A DNA stretch of 64,000 nt. Source: Patiria pectinifera (taxonomy: Eukaryota; Echinodermata; Asteroidea; Valvatida; Asterinidae). The stretch spans positions 28,449,430 to 28,513,429 of the forward strand of contig CM057129.1 of the NCBI GenBank assembly GCA_029964075.1, in the 5' to 3' direction. The notes beneath the pieces were generated by a model. It was not told the DNA's origin. It saw only the letters and a list, made by a program, of their open reading frames with translations, and made no database searches. The position numbers and the translations under genes are program-made. Shown here piece by piece: positions 1,409-29,440 of the stretch; positions within the stretch are counted from its first letter, which is position 1, and every line of letters starts with the position of its first letter.

Positions 1409-4400
1409 GTAAGAAATCCAGTACTTGTCCTTTGTAGATATGCTGTTGTCTGGTTGGCGAATGTGGCCAAGTGGTTAGCGTGACTCATGATCAGAGGGTC
1501 AGGAGTTCGAATTCAGCTGCTGGCCATACGTTGTGTCCTTGGGCAAGCCACTTCACCCCTACTTGCCTCTCTCCACGATCCTTGGTATTATTTTATTAGC
1601 TTTGAAGTAACCGGCAATGGACTGGCATCCCATCCAGAGGGATAGAAATATTCTCAATTGTTCCATGCTCAGAAAACCGGAGACAAACGCTGGCCTGATG
1701 GACTGTAATTGGCTCATGACAGACTAAAACTGTTAGTGTCTCATCATTAACGTGTCTTGGGAGGGAATAAAACAATTGCCTTCCAACAGATTCACACATT
1801 ATCAGGCTATGGTTCGTAGCACTTACTGGGGCACGGGTACACCAAGGTGATCATCGTGTGCCTCCCCTCCTTCATCTCCGATTTCGTCCAGATAAACAAA
1901 GCTTTTTATTATTTGGGGAAACTATGGCCTAATGATTGCGTGCTCCCTTCCTAACAATGAGGAACATACATTGTACTTTTCCCGGCAAAGTAAGCTCTAA
2001 ATTTGCAACAAGTTACAAGTGTGATATTTAGCAATAAGTCATGCCTTCTTTATTTGTCCTAAACGGTCCTCGATAAGTTATTTTGAAAGACATACTTGCT
2101 GACCAGATTCCTGCCATATTAATCTATACCCGCAAACTTAAAAACAACAACAAAAATCAGAAAGTATGTCATTTTTTTGTGCCAGTCCTTTTATATTCAA
2201 AGCTATTTCGCTTGATTTTTTTGATTAGCAAATCAATATCAACCGTGGTGGAAGTTGGACCTGGGAAACAGCTTCGTCGTCACGAAAGTCGTTATTTTTA
2301 ATCGAGCCGGAAGGTTTGGTAAGTGCTTTGAGACCAAAGCAATCTTATGACAACAGTAAATCTCATTGAGTAATAGAGATGTTGATAAACGGTAAAAACT
2401 AAAACATTTTTTTAAAAAAATCGGGATCAGAAGAAAGATGACGTAGAACTTAGAAAGATGGTGATTATAGGCCTAATTGAAGAGAAAAAAATGCACCTTC
2501 GTTAGCGTGTTTCATTCAGCTATTTCTTCGGCACATTATGTGCAATGAATCTGAACTTTGCGGTAACTTCATCAGGTAGACGACTCATTGGCGCTGAGGT
2601 GCGAGTTAGAGGTAGCGCTGTCGCCGCAAGGAATCGCCGCTGCGGGGGGCCTGTGACGAAATCCGAAGCGAAAGCCGGCACCAAGATAACTAGAGAGTGT
2701 CCGGCAAACACGAGGGGTCGCTTCGTCAGCGTGCAGATCCGTAAGAGAAAGGAGTTCCTGACGTTGTGCGAGGTGGAGGTGTTTGGTCACGAGCGATTGG
2801 GTAAGAGCGATGGGTACCACTAGTCCTAAAGTTGTCCATATTTGACGATAACTGAGCTGGCTGTCCTCCATCACTTCGACGCTCCAAAGCTCACTTTGGT
2901 AGTTCACACAACGCACTCCGATCCCCTTTAGTGACGTGTTCTAGAGCTACGCACATGTGCAATTCAGGCATCTGATGGAAGTGCCTCAGTAATAGAACCG
3001 TTAGCGTAGTTTCGAAGGGGTTGGTGAGTTTAAGTCTCACAGTATAGTCACCGACGATAACACTTCATGTGTGCACTTTAGGCCGAACAACATAGACCAA
3101 AGTCCACGGGCGTCGCCAGTATTTTTCGGGGGGGGGGGGCACAGCACATTTTCCCCCCCCCAAAAAAAAAAATCATTGTACTTTCTGTAGCATATTCGAG
3201 GGGGGGGGGACATTTACCCACCCCCGCCCCCATTGACACCCCTGCAGATGCCCATTTTGCTACATGTGTATTAAATTAGGTGCAAATATGACTTCACACC
3301 TCTTTTTCTTTTCTTTTCTTTTCTTTTCTTTTCTTAATTTTTGTTCTTCCTTTGTTTGTTTGTTTGTTTGTTGGGGTGTTGGGGGTGTTTGTTTGTTTGT
3401 TTGTTTATTTGTTTGGCTTTTCGGGGGGAAGCGCCCCCCTTGCCCAATCCTGACGGCGCCCATGGGCCAAATGCTTTTTTTTCTTTTAATTGTTTATATC
3501 TTTCTGGTATGAAACCATTCTGGTATGAAACCAAGGATTTCTCAGAAGCGTTTTCGGCACTGTGGCACGAAAGCCAGAAAAAAAACCTGTCAGATGAAGA
3601 CAATGAGAAGAAATGACAGTTTGAGAGGTGGGAGGAAATCGGAACCCACGGAATCAGGTAGGGACTGAAAACACACAGCGGTGGAAGACGAGAGATGTAA
3701 CCACTGCGCCAACCTGACTCCCCACTTGTTGGCAGTTAAATCAACATCCTCTTGAAAAAAGACACTGTGCTTACACTACATGGTCTTGAGACTGCATGGT
3801 TAAACCAATTTGAAAAAAAAAATCCCTACTCATTGATAAGGATGTCATGACCTAAAATTGAAAATAAAAGAGTGTGATTTGGTGATACAGAATAGGTCTC
3901 TTGATTTTGTCCAAATATACCATTTCTCAGTAAATGTCGAAGATTAAAATGGCATTGTGTTTTTATTTCCAGGAAGCGACGGTGGAGTGATTCCCTTCGA
4001 GGGCTACCCTGCCCTACCCTCTCCTCTGATCTCAAGCCCAGGCTACCCTTCAGGTTTCATACCAGGTTCTCCCGTCACGGGAGGCAATTGTATCGTGCCC
4101 TCCCCACAGGATCGGTTTAGTTACCTTATCATACCTGATGGCGGTGACACGCTGGTAGGCGGCTGCGCCAAATGCAGGTGTACGTCTGTGATCTCGTACA
4201 GCGCTCCAGCAAAGGTAGTCGACAGGTGAGGCAAATGAGGTACCGGCTTAATTAATAACAATGCAAAAGCAAACCAGCATTGTAACCGAGTTTATCACAA
4301 GGCTATCGTAAAAAGTGATGAACCATGAACACGTGTCATAGCGCACTTGTAAAGAAAAAAATAGTTTTAACGAAGTCCGGATGCCGTACCATTGACTGTT

Positions 4401-7400
4401 TACGACGTGATTACAAATGAGCTCCAAATGATGTACAGAAACTTCTTTTAAGATCACTGAAAGAAAGGGCAGGACAGGAGACTGGTAACGAGTCTATGAT
4501 TGGGTGATTTGCTCTCCTTTATTTACTGATTGTTCTCAAAATTAAATGACGAAGACAGTAATGCAGCTTGATAGGTTGATTGATTGATGAAGGCTGAGTT
4601 GTCGTGTAACTTTAAGCCGTGGAATGGGAGCTGTGTACTGTAATCGAGGCTGTGATGGAGACAGTGGAGGCCGTGGTTAAATGCCGTGGGTTTTTGTTAG
4701 TATACGCACGGCCGTTGTGGGACGGCACACGGATGATTAAGAAAATTGGGTTTTACTTGGGATTTAACGTTTGATCGACGAAATAATTGAGAGATTTATC
4801 GGAATGATTTCAGAAAGAATGCGAGTAAAATTGGAGTCACGTTGGAATTGTCTAGATTCATAATCACAAGAGGGCGCTATACAAGTTTATAGCTCACAAT
4901 CATCGCATTTGCAACTGATGCAAAAAGGTAACGCTAACCAAAGTGTCATTTTCTTACGTCACAATCAAAACTGGCCTGTCCAGGGGCGGCAGAACGTGTG
5001 GCGAATTTTTCTTTTCCAAAACGACATCCGCATACATGGTTATTTAGCGCCATCTACGATACTTTTATGATACGTACGCAGGTATATAATTATTTTTTCC
5101 CAACATTTTGGGCAAGTAGTGCGATAGCTCAGTCGATACAGATTCGAGATTTTGCACTGCGAGGTTGCGGGTTCGCAACACGGTTTTGCACCCGATTTTT
5201 TTTCTTCTCTAACCTGAGGCTTTGGAGGATTTTTTTAAAAAGGAAATGAACTCCTAATTTCAAAACGTTCGAATTTATTTCTTTTCTTCTAACTTTGTAT
5301 TTTCTTCTCATCTTTTTAAAAGTTAAGTCCAAAACGCCGTAGCGTACACCCGGCCCATATGCGGATATCGTTTGAGAGAAAAAAAATTACAAAGGGGGGG
5401 GGGCAGATTTTCCCTCTCGCAGTGCCCCTCTCGCAGTTCTAAATGTGCCCCCTCAAGATGAAAACAAAACTGTCCCTCAAACGCACAAGTATGAAAGCAT
5501 TCTCAAATAATAAAAATGTCTCCTCTCTTGTAATGCAAAACTGCCTCTCCAAAACACAAGTACTCCTCTCGCATTAATAAGATTGTGCACCTTCTCGAGA
5601 TGGAAAACTACCCCTCGAAAGCAAAAATACCCCTCTCGCAATAATATAATTGTACCTCTCTCATAAAAATAATAGCGCTCCTTTCGCGATAACTTCTCGA
5701 GATGGAAAACTGCCCCTCGAAAGCACAATTGTTGCCCAACAGCCCAACATTAAAATTGTGCCCCCTCTCAAAATGGTCACTGAACTGGCCTTCCAAAGCA
5801 ACAATGCCCCATCGCGATTAAAACAAAATGGTCTCTCTACAAAACTATAGGTAAAAGAAACACAAAGAGCAGGATGGACAACGTATTCATAATTTGTTCC
5901 TCGTCATATAGGTTTATAGCGAAATGAACGGGACCATATTCTTTTCCTTCACTTCCACATCGGCGGAAGGTGTCCCCTTTTCTGAGCAACCCCTTTTTGG
6001 TGTTGCCCCCCCCCCTCCCCCAGTTTGAAAAGCGTTCCGCCGCCCTGGTCCTACCAAACTCAATTGTTTAATTAAGTTCCTGAAAATTCATCGTTAGGAA
6101 CGGTATAAGGAGCGAAATCGAAAGATCAACAGTCATTTGGAAAGTTCACTCATGAAGTCTGCGCCTGTCTGATACCAGAACTGTCTCTCCTAATACTGTA
6201 TAAAACAACGTCACTCTGAAACGGGTGTAATTTCATTGGACGGGGACTTGTACCGATACATGTATTGCTAATAGACTGACAGGATGGACATACGGATGTA
6301 ACATCAAAGAGACGACACCTCATTCGTAGTGCATATCTTTTTTTTTCTTACGGCGTAATATCGCCATACTATTGCGCTATATCGCAGTAATGTTGCATTT
6401 ATACACCTGAATAAATCCCCGTCATCTAATTGGTGGATCGTTGATCACATGTCATTGAAATATTCGTCCGAACGCACGGCTCGGCCACACTGCAAAAATA
6501 GAAGTTCTTCTGCACGGTGAATATAACTTCCATCGCACGGTTTCATTACTGCCGGTGGTGGCGCTGTAACACGAATCTGATTCACAGAATGGCAAATTGG
6601 CGGACGATACGCGAGAATCTTCGTTTGTTCTCCTCGATTCACAGAAGACGAAATATTGGAACTTGCAGGTGATGCTGACGCTGCTAACACAAAGAATCAA
6701 ATAAGATATCCTGCCAAAGGATTAGACGAATTTGAATATGGTAGTCCTGAACTTGTCGAGATCAGTTTTAAAATACAAAACTTGGATATGAAAGTTCTAA
6801 ACTTAGTTGTGGAACAATTTCAAAACGAGATAAATTGAATATGATAGGCTAGTTCTAAACTTGTCAAACAGTTTTTCATTTGAATAAATTGGATATTGGA
6901 AGTGAACCACCAGTTATTGCCATCTGAAAAAGTAGAAAATTGATGTAAGTAAAAGTTTATAAGTCAACCAATTTTTTAAAAGCAAGGACTTATTCGGGTG
7001 GTATTAAAAAACAAATAATGAATGTTTCACATCCGTGCATTGTCGCAATATAACGCAGTGGCACGGCGATATGACGCAATACTACGGCGATATAGCGCCG
7101 TACACAAAATAGACTTGCACTACGAATTTGTGGATTCGGACCCGCTCCGTCGCACTCATTCGTACTTGAGGCGTTTGAATGATCTACACGATTATTGTCC
7201 TGTTACAGAGGTTGCGATTGCGACTACTCTGGTTGTTGCCAGTACCAGAAAAAGCACTACGCCCCTGCTGATGTCGTGCCCAACTATGACGGGGACCAGT
7301 GTAGACGGACCTGTAGATGCATATCCAGGGCCAACGGCGAGAGACCAGTCATTGCTTGCTCAGCTAACAGCAACGTGTGTGAGTTTGAGAGCAGATGCGT

Positions 7401-24780: not shown

Positions 24781-24994
24781 ATAATAATAATAACGGAGTC
24801 TTATATAGCGCATGTATCTACCAACAATTAGGTACTCAAGGCGCTGGAAATTATGTCAATTATTAAAGAAAGGTAAATAAAGTTTATGAGAAATATGAGA
24901 CCCATTATTTCGCACCTTACAATGGTTTACAAGGTGCTGCGGAAACTGCCAGAAACACCGGGGCAAACCCCTTCTCTTAGCGATAAGTGTTACT

Positions 24995-27839
24995 AGCGTT
25001 CTTTCGTTTTGGACGGTTATTCATGACGGTTCGTCATGACAGCTCGTCATGACGGTCGTCCTGCGCAATCACATTCCTCGCTGAAACGAAGGGGGGGGGT
25101 CAATGGAACTTGGCCGATCAACTGGCTCCTCTGTACGGTAACCTTTGTCATTCGTAATAAAGACTTTACATTATTATACACACAAACACACACAGCCAGG
25201 GACTGCCACACGTCGAATGCAACAACAATGGGAAACAAAATGCCCAGTTGCTCAATTTGAATGAGATTAGTACGGGAGTTTCAAAAGCCATACGAGGCCA
25301 TAGGCCCTACATTTATTTGCCACGCAATGTTTAAAATTCTCAAAGAAAAGGTGCAGGAAGAACCTTCTTTCATGCAGTGACTGTCTTAGGGCACCGATGA
25401 ACTCGTACAGAAATATGAGGGATTACAGTGTTTATTGCAAGAATAACTTGGCAAACTGTCACCACTACATGTACTAGTTTTGAATCCAGTGCATAGGTTT
25501 ATATACAATGTACATAAACTAAGTGTTTCAATTTACAGGCAACGACAGCTACAAAGACAAACAAAAACAATTAAAACGAAGTAACCCAAAACATTCTTTC
25601 CGGAAAAGCAAAAGACAAAAAAAACAAAACAAAAACTAAAAGAGGTGTGAAGTCATATTTGCAATTACTTTAATACACATTTAACAAAATGGGCGTCTGC
25701 AGGAGTGTCAATGGGGGTGGGGTGGGCAAATGACCACGCCCACCCTAAACAAAATTATTAATTGAGAATATGCTAGAGAAAGTAAAGGGATTTTAGGGGA
25801 ACAATTTGCTTCGTCCCCTGCTACATCAAAATCCTGGCGACGCCCATGCATGGTCAGGGAGGGAGGGGGGGGGGAGAGCGAAATAACAACACTTATTTTA
25901 GTCCATACACTACTCTCTTTTTTTCGCCATAACTGATTGCATTAGAACCTCACCAGTTTTCATACCTAAATGCTTAAGTTTCAACAGTTCGTACAATATG
26001 GCCTCGAAGCATTCCTTCGTTACCTCAGAGCAACATTTTATTATGCCCTGCAAAAACAAGAAAGCCATATAAAAAAACATGTATTTTTAGATGATAAGCA
26101 TATGTTACATAAACATAAACTCAAGGACTGAGGCTCCGTCAAACTCCAAATTGAAGTCTACCGACACTGTTTCTGTTTTTGAGTAGTTATAATGCGAACC
26201 AAAAAAAATGTACGTCTCCAATATTAGGCAGTTTTTTTTCTGCTTCTCATACTTTGACTGAATGGCTGGCTTTTGACAAAAAATTGTCATCACAAATTAA
26301 TATTCATGAGTAGAAACGAGGAAGAACAGTTTTCATCAAAGACAAATAGACAATAATTTCAACCCTCTCATTTCCAACAAAAGCCAGCCATTCAGTCAAA
26401 GTATGAGACACAGAAAAAAGCTGCCTAATATTGAAGACGTGATCTACTTTTTTGGGGGTTCACATATTGACTACTCAAAAACAGAAACAGTGTCGCTAGA
26501 CTTCAATTTGGAGTTTGACGGAGCCTCAGTCCTTGGAGTTCATGGAACATATGCTTATTATCTAAAAAAAAAAAAAAAAAAAAAAAAAACCAAGCTTTTA
26601 TTAATGGCTTTCTTGTTTTTGCAGGGCATAATAAAATTTTGCTCTGAGCTAACGAAGGAATGGTTTGTGGCTACATTGTACGAACTGTTGAAACTTCTGG
26701 ATTTTGGTATGAAAACTGGTGAGGTACTATTGCAATCGGTTATGGCGAAAAAAGAGAACTGTATGGACTAAAATAAGTCTTGTTATTTCGCCCTCCTCCC
26801 CCCCCCCTCCCTGGCCATGCATGGGCGTCGCCAGGATTTTTTTTTTCTAGCGGGGGGGGGCAAAGCAAATTGTTCCCAAAAATCCTTGTACTTTCTCTAG
26901 CATATTCTCAATTGATAATTTTGTTTAGGGTGGGCGGGGGACATTTGTCCACCCCACCCCCATTGATGACACCCCTGCAGACGCCCATTTTGTTGAATGT
27001 GTATTAAATTAATAACAAATATGACTTCACACCTCTTTTCCCTTTTTTTTTCTTAATTTTTTTTCTAATTTCTAGATTAGTGTAGAAATTTCAAGCCAGG
27101 CAGGAGGCACATGCCGTGCAATGTTTAGAATTCTGAAAGAACAGAATTTGGAAGAAACCTCTTTCATGCAAGACGTTTTTGCAGAAACACAGTCTCTCAG
27201 ATTTACTTTAACTGGTAAAAACAATTATCAAGAATGTTATGGGCTATTTCGTTTTAATTGTTTTTGTTTATTTCTTTGTAGCTGTCGTTGCCTGTAAATT
27301 GAAACACTTAGTTGATGTACATAGTATATAAACCTATGCACTGGGTTCAAAACTACATGTAGTGGTGACAGTTTGCCAAGTTATTCTCGCAATAAACCCT
27401 GTAATCCCTCATATTTCCGTACGAGTTCATCGATGCCCTAAGACAGTCACTGTACGAAAAGAAGGTTCTTCTTGCACCTTTTCTTTGAGAATTTTAAACA
27501 TTGCGTGGCAAATAAATGTAGGGCCTATGGCCTCGTACGTCTTTTGAAACTCCTACACTAATCTCATTCAAAGTTAGCAACTTGGCTTTTAGTTCCCATT
27601 GTTGTTGCATTCGACGTGTTTATGGCAGTCCCTGGCTGTGTGTGTTTGTGTGTATAATAATCTAAAGTCTTTATTACGAATGACAAAGGTTACCGCACAG
27701 AGGAGCCAGTTGATCGGCCAAGTTGCATTGACCCCCCCCCCCCCTCGTTTCAGCGAGGATTGTGATTGTACAGGACGACCGTCATGACGAGCTGTCATGA
27801 CGAACCGTCATGACTAACCGTCCAAAACGAAAGAACGCT
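24995..27839. mobile_element. Large foldback element (about 2.85 kb) with 3-bp target duplication
   Basis: The left arm (24995-about 26280) and right arm (about 26380-27839) are inverted copies with only scattered differences. Termini: AGCGTTCTTTCGTTTTGGAC and its complement. The duplicated target is ACT on each side (24992-24994 and 27840-27842). Subterminal direct repeats 'CGTCATGAC' occur three times per arm. The central spacer is about 100 bp. The right arm is longer by ~170 bp, mostly one block (27075-27250) missing from the left arm. No transposase was recognised. 3-bp duplications occur in several DNA-transposon superfamilies, so it is not assigned. Related fragments lie at 3.1, 10.0, 30.7 and 32.2 kb. 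Confidence 0.85.
26625..27331 (+). pseudogene. Spliceable reading-frame remnant in the right foldback arm
   Basis: Three blocks can be joined in phase. 26625-26718 lies after cttgtttttgcag and ends AACTG|GTGAGG; it reads GIIKFCSELTKEWFVATLYE. 27086-27214 lies after gattagtgtag and ends AACTG|GTAAAA; it reads ISSQAGGTCRAMFRILKEQ then FMQDVFAETQSLRFTLT. 27282-27331 lies after tttctttgtag and reads AVVACKLKHLVDVHSI-stop. An ORF at 26403-26600 upstream (KTETVSLDFNLEFDGASVLG) may be an earlier exon. The protein family was not recognised. It may be a captured host gene fragment or an element-encoded gene. The left arm keeps the first and last blocks in inverted form but lacks the middle one. Confidence 0.4.
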
Positions 27840-28029
27840 ACTGGGTTCTTTAACGTGCATTACACAACACACGGGACCTACGGCTTTACGTCCCATCCGA
27901 AGGACGAAGCAATAATGGTAAAGTGCCTTGCTCAAGAGCACAAGCACCATGTTCCCACGGTCAGGATTCGAATCCATGCACCAGGGCACACGAGTCGAAC
28001 ACCGTAACCATTGGACCACAGCGCCCCAA

Positions 28030-29440
28030 CAACTGAACAATGTAGCTATTTCATTTAATTTTTATACTAACGAATTTACGACAAGTGAAAAAAAAATCTG
28101 AGGAGACTGGTGACGCACTTCGAATTCCAGTGTGCAGTAAGCACTTAATACTGCATGAGAATAAGTTTCAGGACGCTAACCACATCACAAAATATACCAA
28201 GAACAAAATAAAAACACGTATAAGTTCAGAATTTAATCAATAAAGCTAAGTTGGATTCAAACCGGGCAAGTGTGACCCCAGCAAAATGACCTTCCCGACA
28301 TGGAGCACAAGTGGAAATCTGCTAGGAGATTTCAAACAGATGGGACTGAGTGTTCTCCCGACGGCGGGTGAATAAATATAGGCAAGCCCTTTAAAAGTGC
28401 AGTTCAGAATGACCATACGTCAACTCCATTTAGCCTTCTGCGTTGTTGTTCGAACGTGATCGACGTCAGATGCATATTAAACCAGCAGAAATAAGTTAGT
28501 CTTTTTTTAATCCAAGGATCCGTATTTAAGCAATCGAAATACAATAGTGCTTCTAGCGAAATTGTCGACGATAAACAATTTTCCCCAGCTATCTGAAGTG
28601 ATTGATATTGGTCAACGTCCACTCACAAAAACATCACATCGTCCATTGGGGATTCGTACCACGTCATAATTTCTTTGCTTGCTTGTCCAACCCGATAAGT
28701 TTGTAGCTCGCACTTTCAAAAAAGCGCTTGATGTCAATCCAAGATAGAAGGCGCAACGGGGGATGGTTCCAGGTGATATCAGTAGTTCCATTTCAAGATA
28801 ATAACCCCTCAGGGTATTCACGAGAAGATGTTATCCTTGATCATCTCATCAATATTTAATGTTGGAATACAATCCAATCGTTATATGTTAGTTTGGTACC
28901 GACAGATTAACTCCCCGAGGCATTCAAATGAGTCCGAACTCTTCTTAGCAAACCGGGGCCGGTCGGCCACTGAGTCGCGAACCGAATACCACCATAAATG
29001 AGCGTAACACAATCCGATGTTGTAACCATAAGCGTGTTCAAACTCGGCAATAAGGCCCGCCGTACAGGGACCTGTTGGCCAGCCATGCATCAACATTAAT
29101 TAAGAAATGCCTTTCAATGAGTTCCATGCTCATTGGTTCATAATGCCCGGTTGTTTTGTGTTATAAGCAACACCCTGTTGCCGGATCATTGTTCTACGTG
29201 CCTTCTCATTTGTGTATGACTTTGTGGGTTTTCTTTCGGTTGAACGCTTCAACGAAAGAAAATGTCGAGTAAACAAGATGTAGGAAATCCCTGGATAATA
29301 GCAGTCCGGTGAATTCAATCGCAGTAATCATACATGCAGTGGTCAGTACATGGAAGATGAGAAGAGGCCCACCTACCAACTCTTTTGCCCATCAATAATT
29401 GGGTGAGGGGAGTGTGCCCTTTGCTTTCGGTGGGTGATGG
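28030..29440. other. Gene-free stretch, no feature seen
   Basis: AT-rich sequence of mixed composition with only chance open frames on the - strand (28404-29096). No splice-consistent exon, tRNA or inverted repeat was recognised. Confidence 0.4.

Follow-up and report, generated by a model that had tools for sequence, protein, structure and literature searches.

What kind of transposon is the 2845-bp foldback at positions 24995-27839 of the window, the whole 64,000-nucleotide stretch of Patiria pectinifera DNA analysed here, and which enzyme could move it? Based on its insertion site, its relatives elsewhere in the genome, and a candidate parent, we conclude, with a probability of roughly 0.87, that it is a non-autonomous derivative of a PHIS-superfamily (PIF/Harbinger-like) cut-and-paste DNA transposon and that Pangu is the closest group by target and terminus. 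Self-comparison of the window for repeats delimited the inverted-repeat element, whose parts are as follows.

24995..26275, plus strand: left arm, beginning AGCGTTCTTTCG, 1281 bp, from the inverted-repeat comparison
26276..26377, no strand: loop between the arms, 102 bp
26378..27839, minus strand: right arm, ending CGAAAGAACGCT, 1462 bp, from the inverted-repeat comparison
27061..27229, no strand: right-arm segment that has no inverted counterpart in the left arm, about 169 bp
25021..25053, plus strand: three subterminal TCATGAC repeats of the left end, starting at 25021, 25034, and 25047 (13-bp spacing)
27782..27814, minus strand: three subterminal TCATGAC repeats of the right end, starting at 27782, 27795, and 27808 (13-bp spacing)
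25993..26684, no strand: inner-arm module, lying to either side of the loop, with about 67-74% nucleotide identity, in pieces, to the tandem array L047

The inverted match runs from 24995 inward to 26234-26275 / 26378-26419, and a one-base extension reaches 24994/27840. Both ends of the foldback carry AGCGTTCTTTCGTTTTGGACGGTT, directly inside which lie the TCATGAC repeats; the outermost left repeat reads TTCATGAC and not GTCATGAC. With up to three mismatches, the 18-base end occurs at two places in the window, namely the two element ends, against a chance expectation of 0.10. Within the unpaired right-arm segment, 59 bp (27112-27170) are 80% like 25318-25376 in direct orientation. The two long inverted arms make up most of the element, and no recognisable coding gene, transposase included, lies inside it, which places it in the foldback structural class. 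Thus, the arms of over 1.2 kb announced in the preliminary description are confirmed, with exact coordinates; its wording of few differences between them is generous: aligned over 1274 positions, left and right arms are 90.5% alike.

The insertion site lies in an older repeat, which the element splits as follows.

24915..24994, no strand: 5' part of the interrupted SINE-like repeat, its extent given as far as it was compared with paralogues
24992..24994, no strand: left copy of the ACT target-site duplication
27840..27842, no strand: right copy of the ACT target-site duplication
27843..28030, no strand: 3' part of the interrupted SINE-like repeat, likeness fading at about 28027

Rejoined with one ACT, the element flanks make up a SINE-like repeat with many copies genome-wide (of 2269 first-look candidates, 40 were scored). 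Across the insertion point, all six of the fetched SINE paralogues read GTGTTACTGGGTTC. Because each of the six holds a single ACT, the triplet was single before the insertion and is now present in two copies, as the preliminary description had proposed together with the rejoining of the repeat at ACT. A TA duplication (TA|GCG...CGC|TA; Tc1/mariner-like) was considered and rejected, since it would predict GTGTTACTACTGGGTTC and the paralogues read otherwise. A 12-base gap elsewhere in the interrupted SINE copy is common to L049 and has no connection with the insertion.

To place the element in a family, we scanned the whole genome with its 24-base end at up to three mismatches, which gave 58 forward and 53 reverse places (111 in total, 100 of them listed), while the reversed-pattern control gave 0. 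The outer 406 bp have at least 41 genome matches (of the 171 candidates, 40 were scored). Sequence around copies was retrieved for 20 stretches at first and for others later. Full copies with the same left/right asymmetry were found at other sites, L011 at 2846 bp and L020 at 2797 bp. The search for other copies and an autonomous partner suggested in the preliminary description therefore yielded both, sharing the ends, the partner being a candidate only.

Seventeen distinct end pairs are readable at both sides; the pair test omitted L028 (a duplicate of L027) and L061/L062 (a duplicate of L025), and some pairs share one flank (L027, L058, and L069 on the left; the left of L059 with the right of L027). 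The 3-bp flanks are identical in 6 of the 17 (shuffle mean 1.93, p = 0.006), with the triplets ACT, ATT, ATT, AAT, AAC, and AGA, four of which are ANT and two (AAC, AGA) not. The other 11 pairs lack identical triplets, including the candidate parent L055 (GTT/ACT) and both of its deletion derivatives; in 5 of these 11 (L011, L029, L063/L064, L065/L066, and L067/L068), both triplets are ANT. Several flanks reappear at other loci, shared in the same orientation or inverted. We infer that many copies were probably rearranged after insertion, when they exchanged sequence with one another or were duplicated along with their flanks. Accordingly, the expectation of the preliminary description that other copies would share these boundaries and a 3-bp duplication is upheld for the boundaries, since the SINE comparison places the ends correctly and the flanks of the copies differ, but only partly for the duplication, given identical triplets in only 6 of 17 pairs.

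Two flanking sequences recur beside the ends of L027, L028, L030, L058, L059, L069, L076, and L077 in varied combinations and orientations, and the length between equal flanks differs (2304 bp in L027, 2995 bp in L028). These recurrent flanks suggest amplification or rearrangement of the L027-group copies together with flanking DNA.

Over 34 distinct ends, the first 40 bases agree at 0.96 on average, and the blocks after them at 0.93, 0.91, and 0.91. The TCATGAC repeats recur with base changes at family ends, the candidate parent included; among the same 34 ends, they are no better conserved than their neighbours. The earlier suggestion that they bind a transposase thus gains from their recurrence and not from their conservation, and we regard them as candidate binding sites for the transposase or a Myb-like helper.

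The flanks also reveal a target preference, the 13-bp palindrome GTYYN-ANT-NRRAC centred on the duplicated triplet. For this logo, 58 flanks were reduced to 41 distinct ones by likeness of their last 16 bases, with the left flank of L057 omitted. Counting back from the end, G-8 is present in 32 of the 41 (binomial p = 1.5e-15), T-7 in 29 (2.3e-6), A-3 in 33 (4.9e-14), and T-1 in 32 (1.3e-8), and left and right ends are alike in the motif. The palindrome provides separate support for a 3-bp stagger. In 43 distinct flanks, the triplet adjoining the end is ANT in 25 and TWA in 0. At the insertion site in the window, the left side fits the palindrome (GTGTTACT), and the right side is without GT. 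By inspection, two more copies, at L018 1572 and L073, seem to lie inside the same SINE family; their SINE site is GTYYCAT, which resembles the target palindrome and may be a hotspot. PIF in maize reportedly has an extended target, which was not found in the literature looked at. A term search found 'palindrom' absent from PMC2213677.

A candidate autonomous parent, L055, lies at C7:14,200,676-14,210,165, where a convergent pair of AGCG ends encloses 9.49 kb. It contains a transposase gene in two exons (HTH/DDE_Tnp_4) and, in the opposed orientation, a second gene, one exon of which is Myb-like. Exon 1 of the transposase matches HTH_Tnp_4 (E 6.5e-8) and exon 2 matches DDE_Tnp_4 (E 3.3e-10), both above the Pfam cut-off, and the exons are in phase across a GT-AG intron. 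The TIRs of L055 are about 300 bp long at 80%. The window element matches L055 in its outer and subterminal parts only, at about 69-84%, and its positions 605-2079 have no match there. Moreover, L056 and L057 (1.23 kb, same ends) are 98% like the first 850 bp of L055 and 92% like its right end, and they carry 60 residues of its transposase at 95%; judged from sequence, both are deletion derivatives of L055. Because L056 and L057 hold L055 sequence between AGCG ends, these ends are tied to the transposase. Among the 100 listed of the 111 ends, L055 has the only full transposase gene found between AGCG ends; there are further convergent pairs, one of them spanning 15 kb on C13. Genome searches turned up no close autonomous version of the window element, and a parent nearer than L055 may exist or may have been lost. 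Matches to transposase exon 1 are unevenly spread, with 12 of 30 on C7, which holds only about 7% of the assembly.

The Myb-like exon of the second gene matches Pfam Myb at E 0.005, below the cut-off. Modelled from a single sequence, it forms three helices (mean pLDDT 71), and its weak structural matches include SANT and Myb domains, the best row not being a Myb domain. Relatives of this exon lie near transposase relatives at two of five other places (C22:20.60 Mb and C7:11.35 Mb).

To classify the family, we compared it with the groups of the PHIS superfamily, in most of which the target duplication is 2-3 bp and in one of which, Spy, there is none (PMC4482050). An element with these ends, L055 with its two derivatives, carries a DDE_Tnp_4-type transposase with an HTH, and a 3-bp duplication is present at the window locus, with 11 of the 17 family pairs not identical. 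We therefore hold with high confidence that the family works like a PHIS transposon. Neither the AT duplication and GG terminus of ISL2EU nor the insertion without duplication within AAATTT of Spy is found here. Pangu, as described by Han et al. (2015), duplicates 5'-ANT-3' targets; its TIRs measure 11-40 bp and usually begin with AG or GG, and its autonomous candidates, of about 3.5 kb, have a second ORF without a known motif (PMC4482050). Similarly, our family has an ANT target (ACT at the window, A-3 and T-1 prevailing in the flanks), ends starting with AGCG, a DDE_Tnp_4-type transposase, and a two-gene candidate parent. The claim of the preliminary description that known superfamilies with 3-bp duplications do not obviously match the AGCG terminus is thus not supported, given Pangu. 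In contrast, the arms of 1.28-1.46 kb and the TIRs of L055 exceed 11-40 bp, which is a reported range and perhaps no strict limit; the candidate parent is also far longer than 3.5 kb, and its second gene has a Myb-like exon, albeit with a match below the Pfam cut-off. We file the family as Pangu-like and not as Pangu because its target and terminus match but its TIR length does not.

Other foldbacks offer partial parallels. The Tetris/DAIBAM system of Drosophila virilis likewise comprises a non-autonomous foldback and a short relative sharing only the final TIR parts, and its arm sequence is also related to separate tandem arrays; in contrast, Tetris has 220-bp tandem units inside its arms, whereas the array relation here is about 70% (PMC4079207). 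Galileo shares long foldback-like arms and several protein-binding sites (candidate sites here) but belongs to the P-element superfamily, with a THAP-domain transposase (PMC3688188). The word 'foldback' is absent from the whole text of PMC4482050 by term search. In the open-licence literature, including that on sea star and sea urchin foldbacks and on palindromic targets of PIF/Harbinger, no title was found that concerned a Pangu or Harbinger foldback. The TU elements of the sea urchin resemble our element as long-arm foldbacks and differ from it in their 8-bp duplications. The element is thus of a known kind, a PHIS transposon; what is unusual is its arm length and the mixture of a Pangu target and terminus with a probable Myb helper.

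The same traits could be read differently. The family might be part of the classic PIF/Harbinger group, its target preference having drifted. That group combines a TWA target, a Myb/SANT second ORF, and TIRs of 5-1042 bp (PMC4482050), and it resembles our family in its 3-bp duplication, HTH and DDE transposase, probable Myb-like second protein, and first TIR base A/G (PMC4482050, PMC9179366, PMC2213677). The two-gene layout with a Myb-like exon and the TIRs of up to 1042 bp, compared with 11-40 bp in Pangu, speak for this assignment, although our arms are longer than the TIR ranges of both groups. However, TWA adjoins none of the 43 distinct flanks and ANT adjoins 25, which makes a drifted PIF/Harbinger element somewhat unlikely. 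It is much harder to sustain that a transposase of another superfamily (e.g. P/Galileo-like or Mutator-like) moves the foldback and that the DDE_Tnp_4 gene on C7 is an unrelated passenger. Foldback-like P and Mutator elements are on record (PMC3688188, PMC3169594), and only one full transposase gene was found among the listed ends; nevertheless, L056 and L057 are further AGCG elements derived from L055, and a PHIS element would be expected to leave a 3-bp duplication within an ANT palindrome. The target duplications of P and Mutator are longer than 3 bp, which also counts against this reading, and we consider it highly improbable.

Finally, the palindrome could have been made by the host during repair and never have transposed as a unit. 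At L011, 105 bp of flanking DNA occur on the two sides as inverted copies (1412-1516 and 4363-4467, 95%), reaching both ends, as if inverted copying had passed the element end; this occurs in one of the eight elements examined and indicates that inverted copying is possible at such loci. Against a host origin, the empty-site test disfavours it, with a clean insertion and a 3-bp duplication in the SINE, and the same left/right asymmetry recurs in copies at different sites (2845, 2846, and 2797 bp). A host-made palindrome is therefore scarcely credible.

For the preferred PHIS reading, the following mechanism can be proposed. A DDE transposase from an AGCG-ended relative, such as L055, would, probably together with the Myb-like partner protein, recognise the end of about 24 bp that both elements have in common, along with the subterminal repeats. 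For Harbinger transposons, TIR binding by the Myb-like protein has been reported, as has its involvement, alongside the transposase, in nuclear import (PMC9179366). The foldback would be cut out and joined to the GTYYN-ANT-NRRAC palindrome with a 3-bp stagger, and gap filling of this stagger would produce the 3-bp duplication. The arms may have arisen by inverted duplication of one element end and been kept alike by conversion. We infer from the shared ends that an L055-type transposase moves the foldback. No new transposition mechanism is revealed; rather, one genome supplies a raw foldback, usually an orphan structure, with a plausible enzyme as well as a defined end and target palindrome, so that the origin, homogenisation, and movement of foldback arms by an ordinary DDE transposase are now directly testable. 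The combination of traits also suggests that, across PHIS transposons, the choice of target can be uncoupled from the helper protein.

To reveal the history of the arms, we compared them by zone within and between copies. In the window element, the outer 600 bp agree at 94.5% (595 positions) and the part further in at 87.0% (679 positions). Between the window copy, L011, and L020, the inner arms agree at 93-96% (left with left) and 92-95% (right with right), while left and right inner arms of one element agree at 87-89%. In contrast, the outer 600 bp are 94-96% alike between left and right in one element and 93-96% alike between the same arms of different elements. Of the inner-arm left/right differences in the window, 51 of 85 comparable ones are identical in L011, compared with 8 of 33 for the outer arms. 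Since 51 of 85 are shared, most inner-arm differences predate the insertion in the window; as these shared differences indicate, the inner-arm divergence is largely inherited, and the outer arms look homogenised. Collectively, these results mean that the arms cannot date the insertion, and the recent insertion that the preliminary description deduced from their likeness does not follow. The closest full copy that was found is about 4-6% different, which bounds the age loosely from above.

The inner-arm module has a distribution of its own. Its array relative, L047, is at C15:4040000-4044000, in an array at C15:4.04-4.06 Mb. Self-comparison gives repeat offsets of about 1.05 and 1.85 kb, and Tandem Repeats Finder reported no repeat with a period of 500 or less; a plain satellite was rejected on these grounds. 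Tandem arrays related to the module also lie at other genome places among those listed for its 24-base piece. A 24-base piece of the module occurs at 276 genome places at up to two mismatches (100 of them listed) vs 111 ends at up to three. Mirrored module pairs occur at some places on C7, C6, and C16, for which the 100 listed include no AGCG end. The Tetris foldback is reported to have donated sequence to arrays (PMC4079207); here, the element may have donated to the arrays or taken from them. The module might also be a captured host gene, with short exons and splice-like borders in a gene-capturing element, and short open stretches with AG/GT borders indeed recur in many copies. However, the likeness to L047 extends past the supposed exons, in several frames and on both strands, stops are common in the copies, and no Pfam family is above the cut-off in the short open stretches, which argues against a captured gene and a remnant transposase alike. 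The weak Pfam rows, including a coronavirus model at E 0.013 and 0.048, fall below the cut-off and are taken as chance. Gene capture is therefore improbable.

A broader proposal, which we regard as tentative and rather unlikely, is that the family represents an in-between PHIS lineage combining an IS5/Pangu-type ANT target, extended into a 13-bp palindrome, with a Harbinger-type Myb helper, and that its outer foldback arms are kept alike by inverted copying able to enter host DNA. Copying past the element end is suggested by the inverted flank at L011; if it does occur, host sequence next to such elements would become duplicated in inverted form as well. Inverted matches are also seen in L012 and L027, where they fail to reach the ends in register, and an older AGCG-like end is present at L011 1380.
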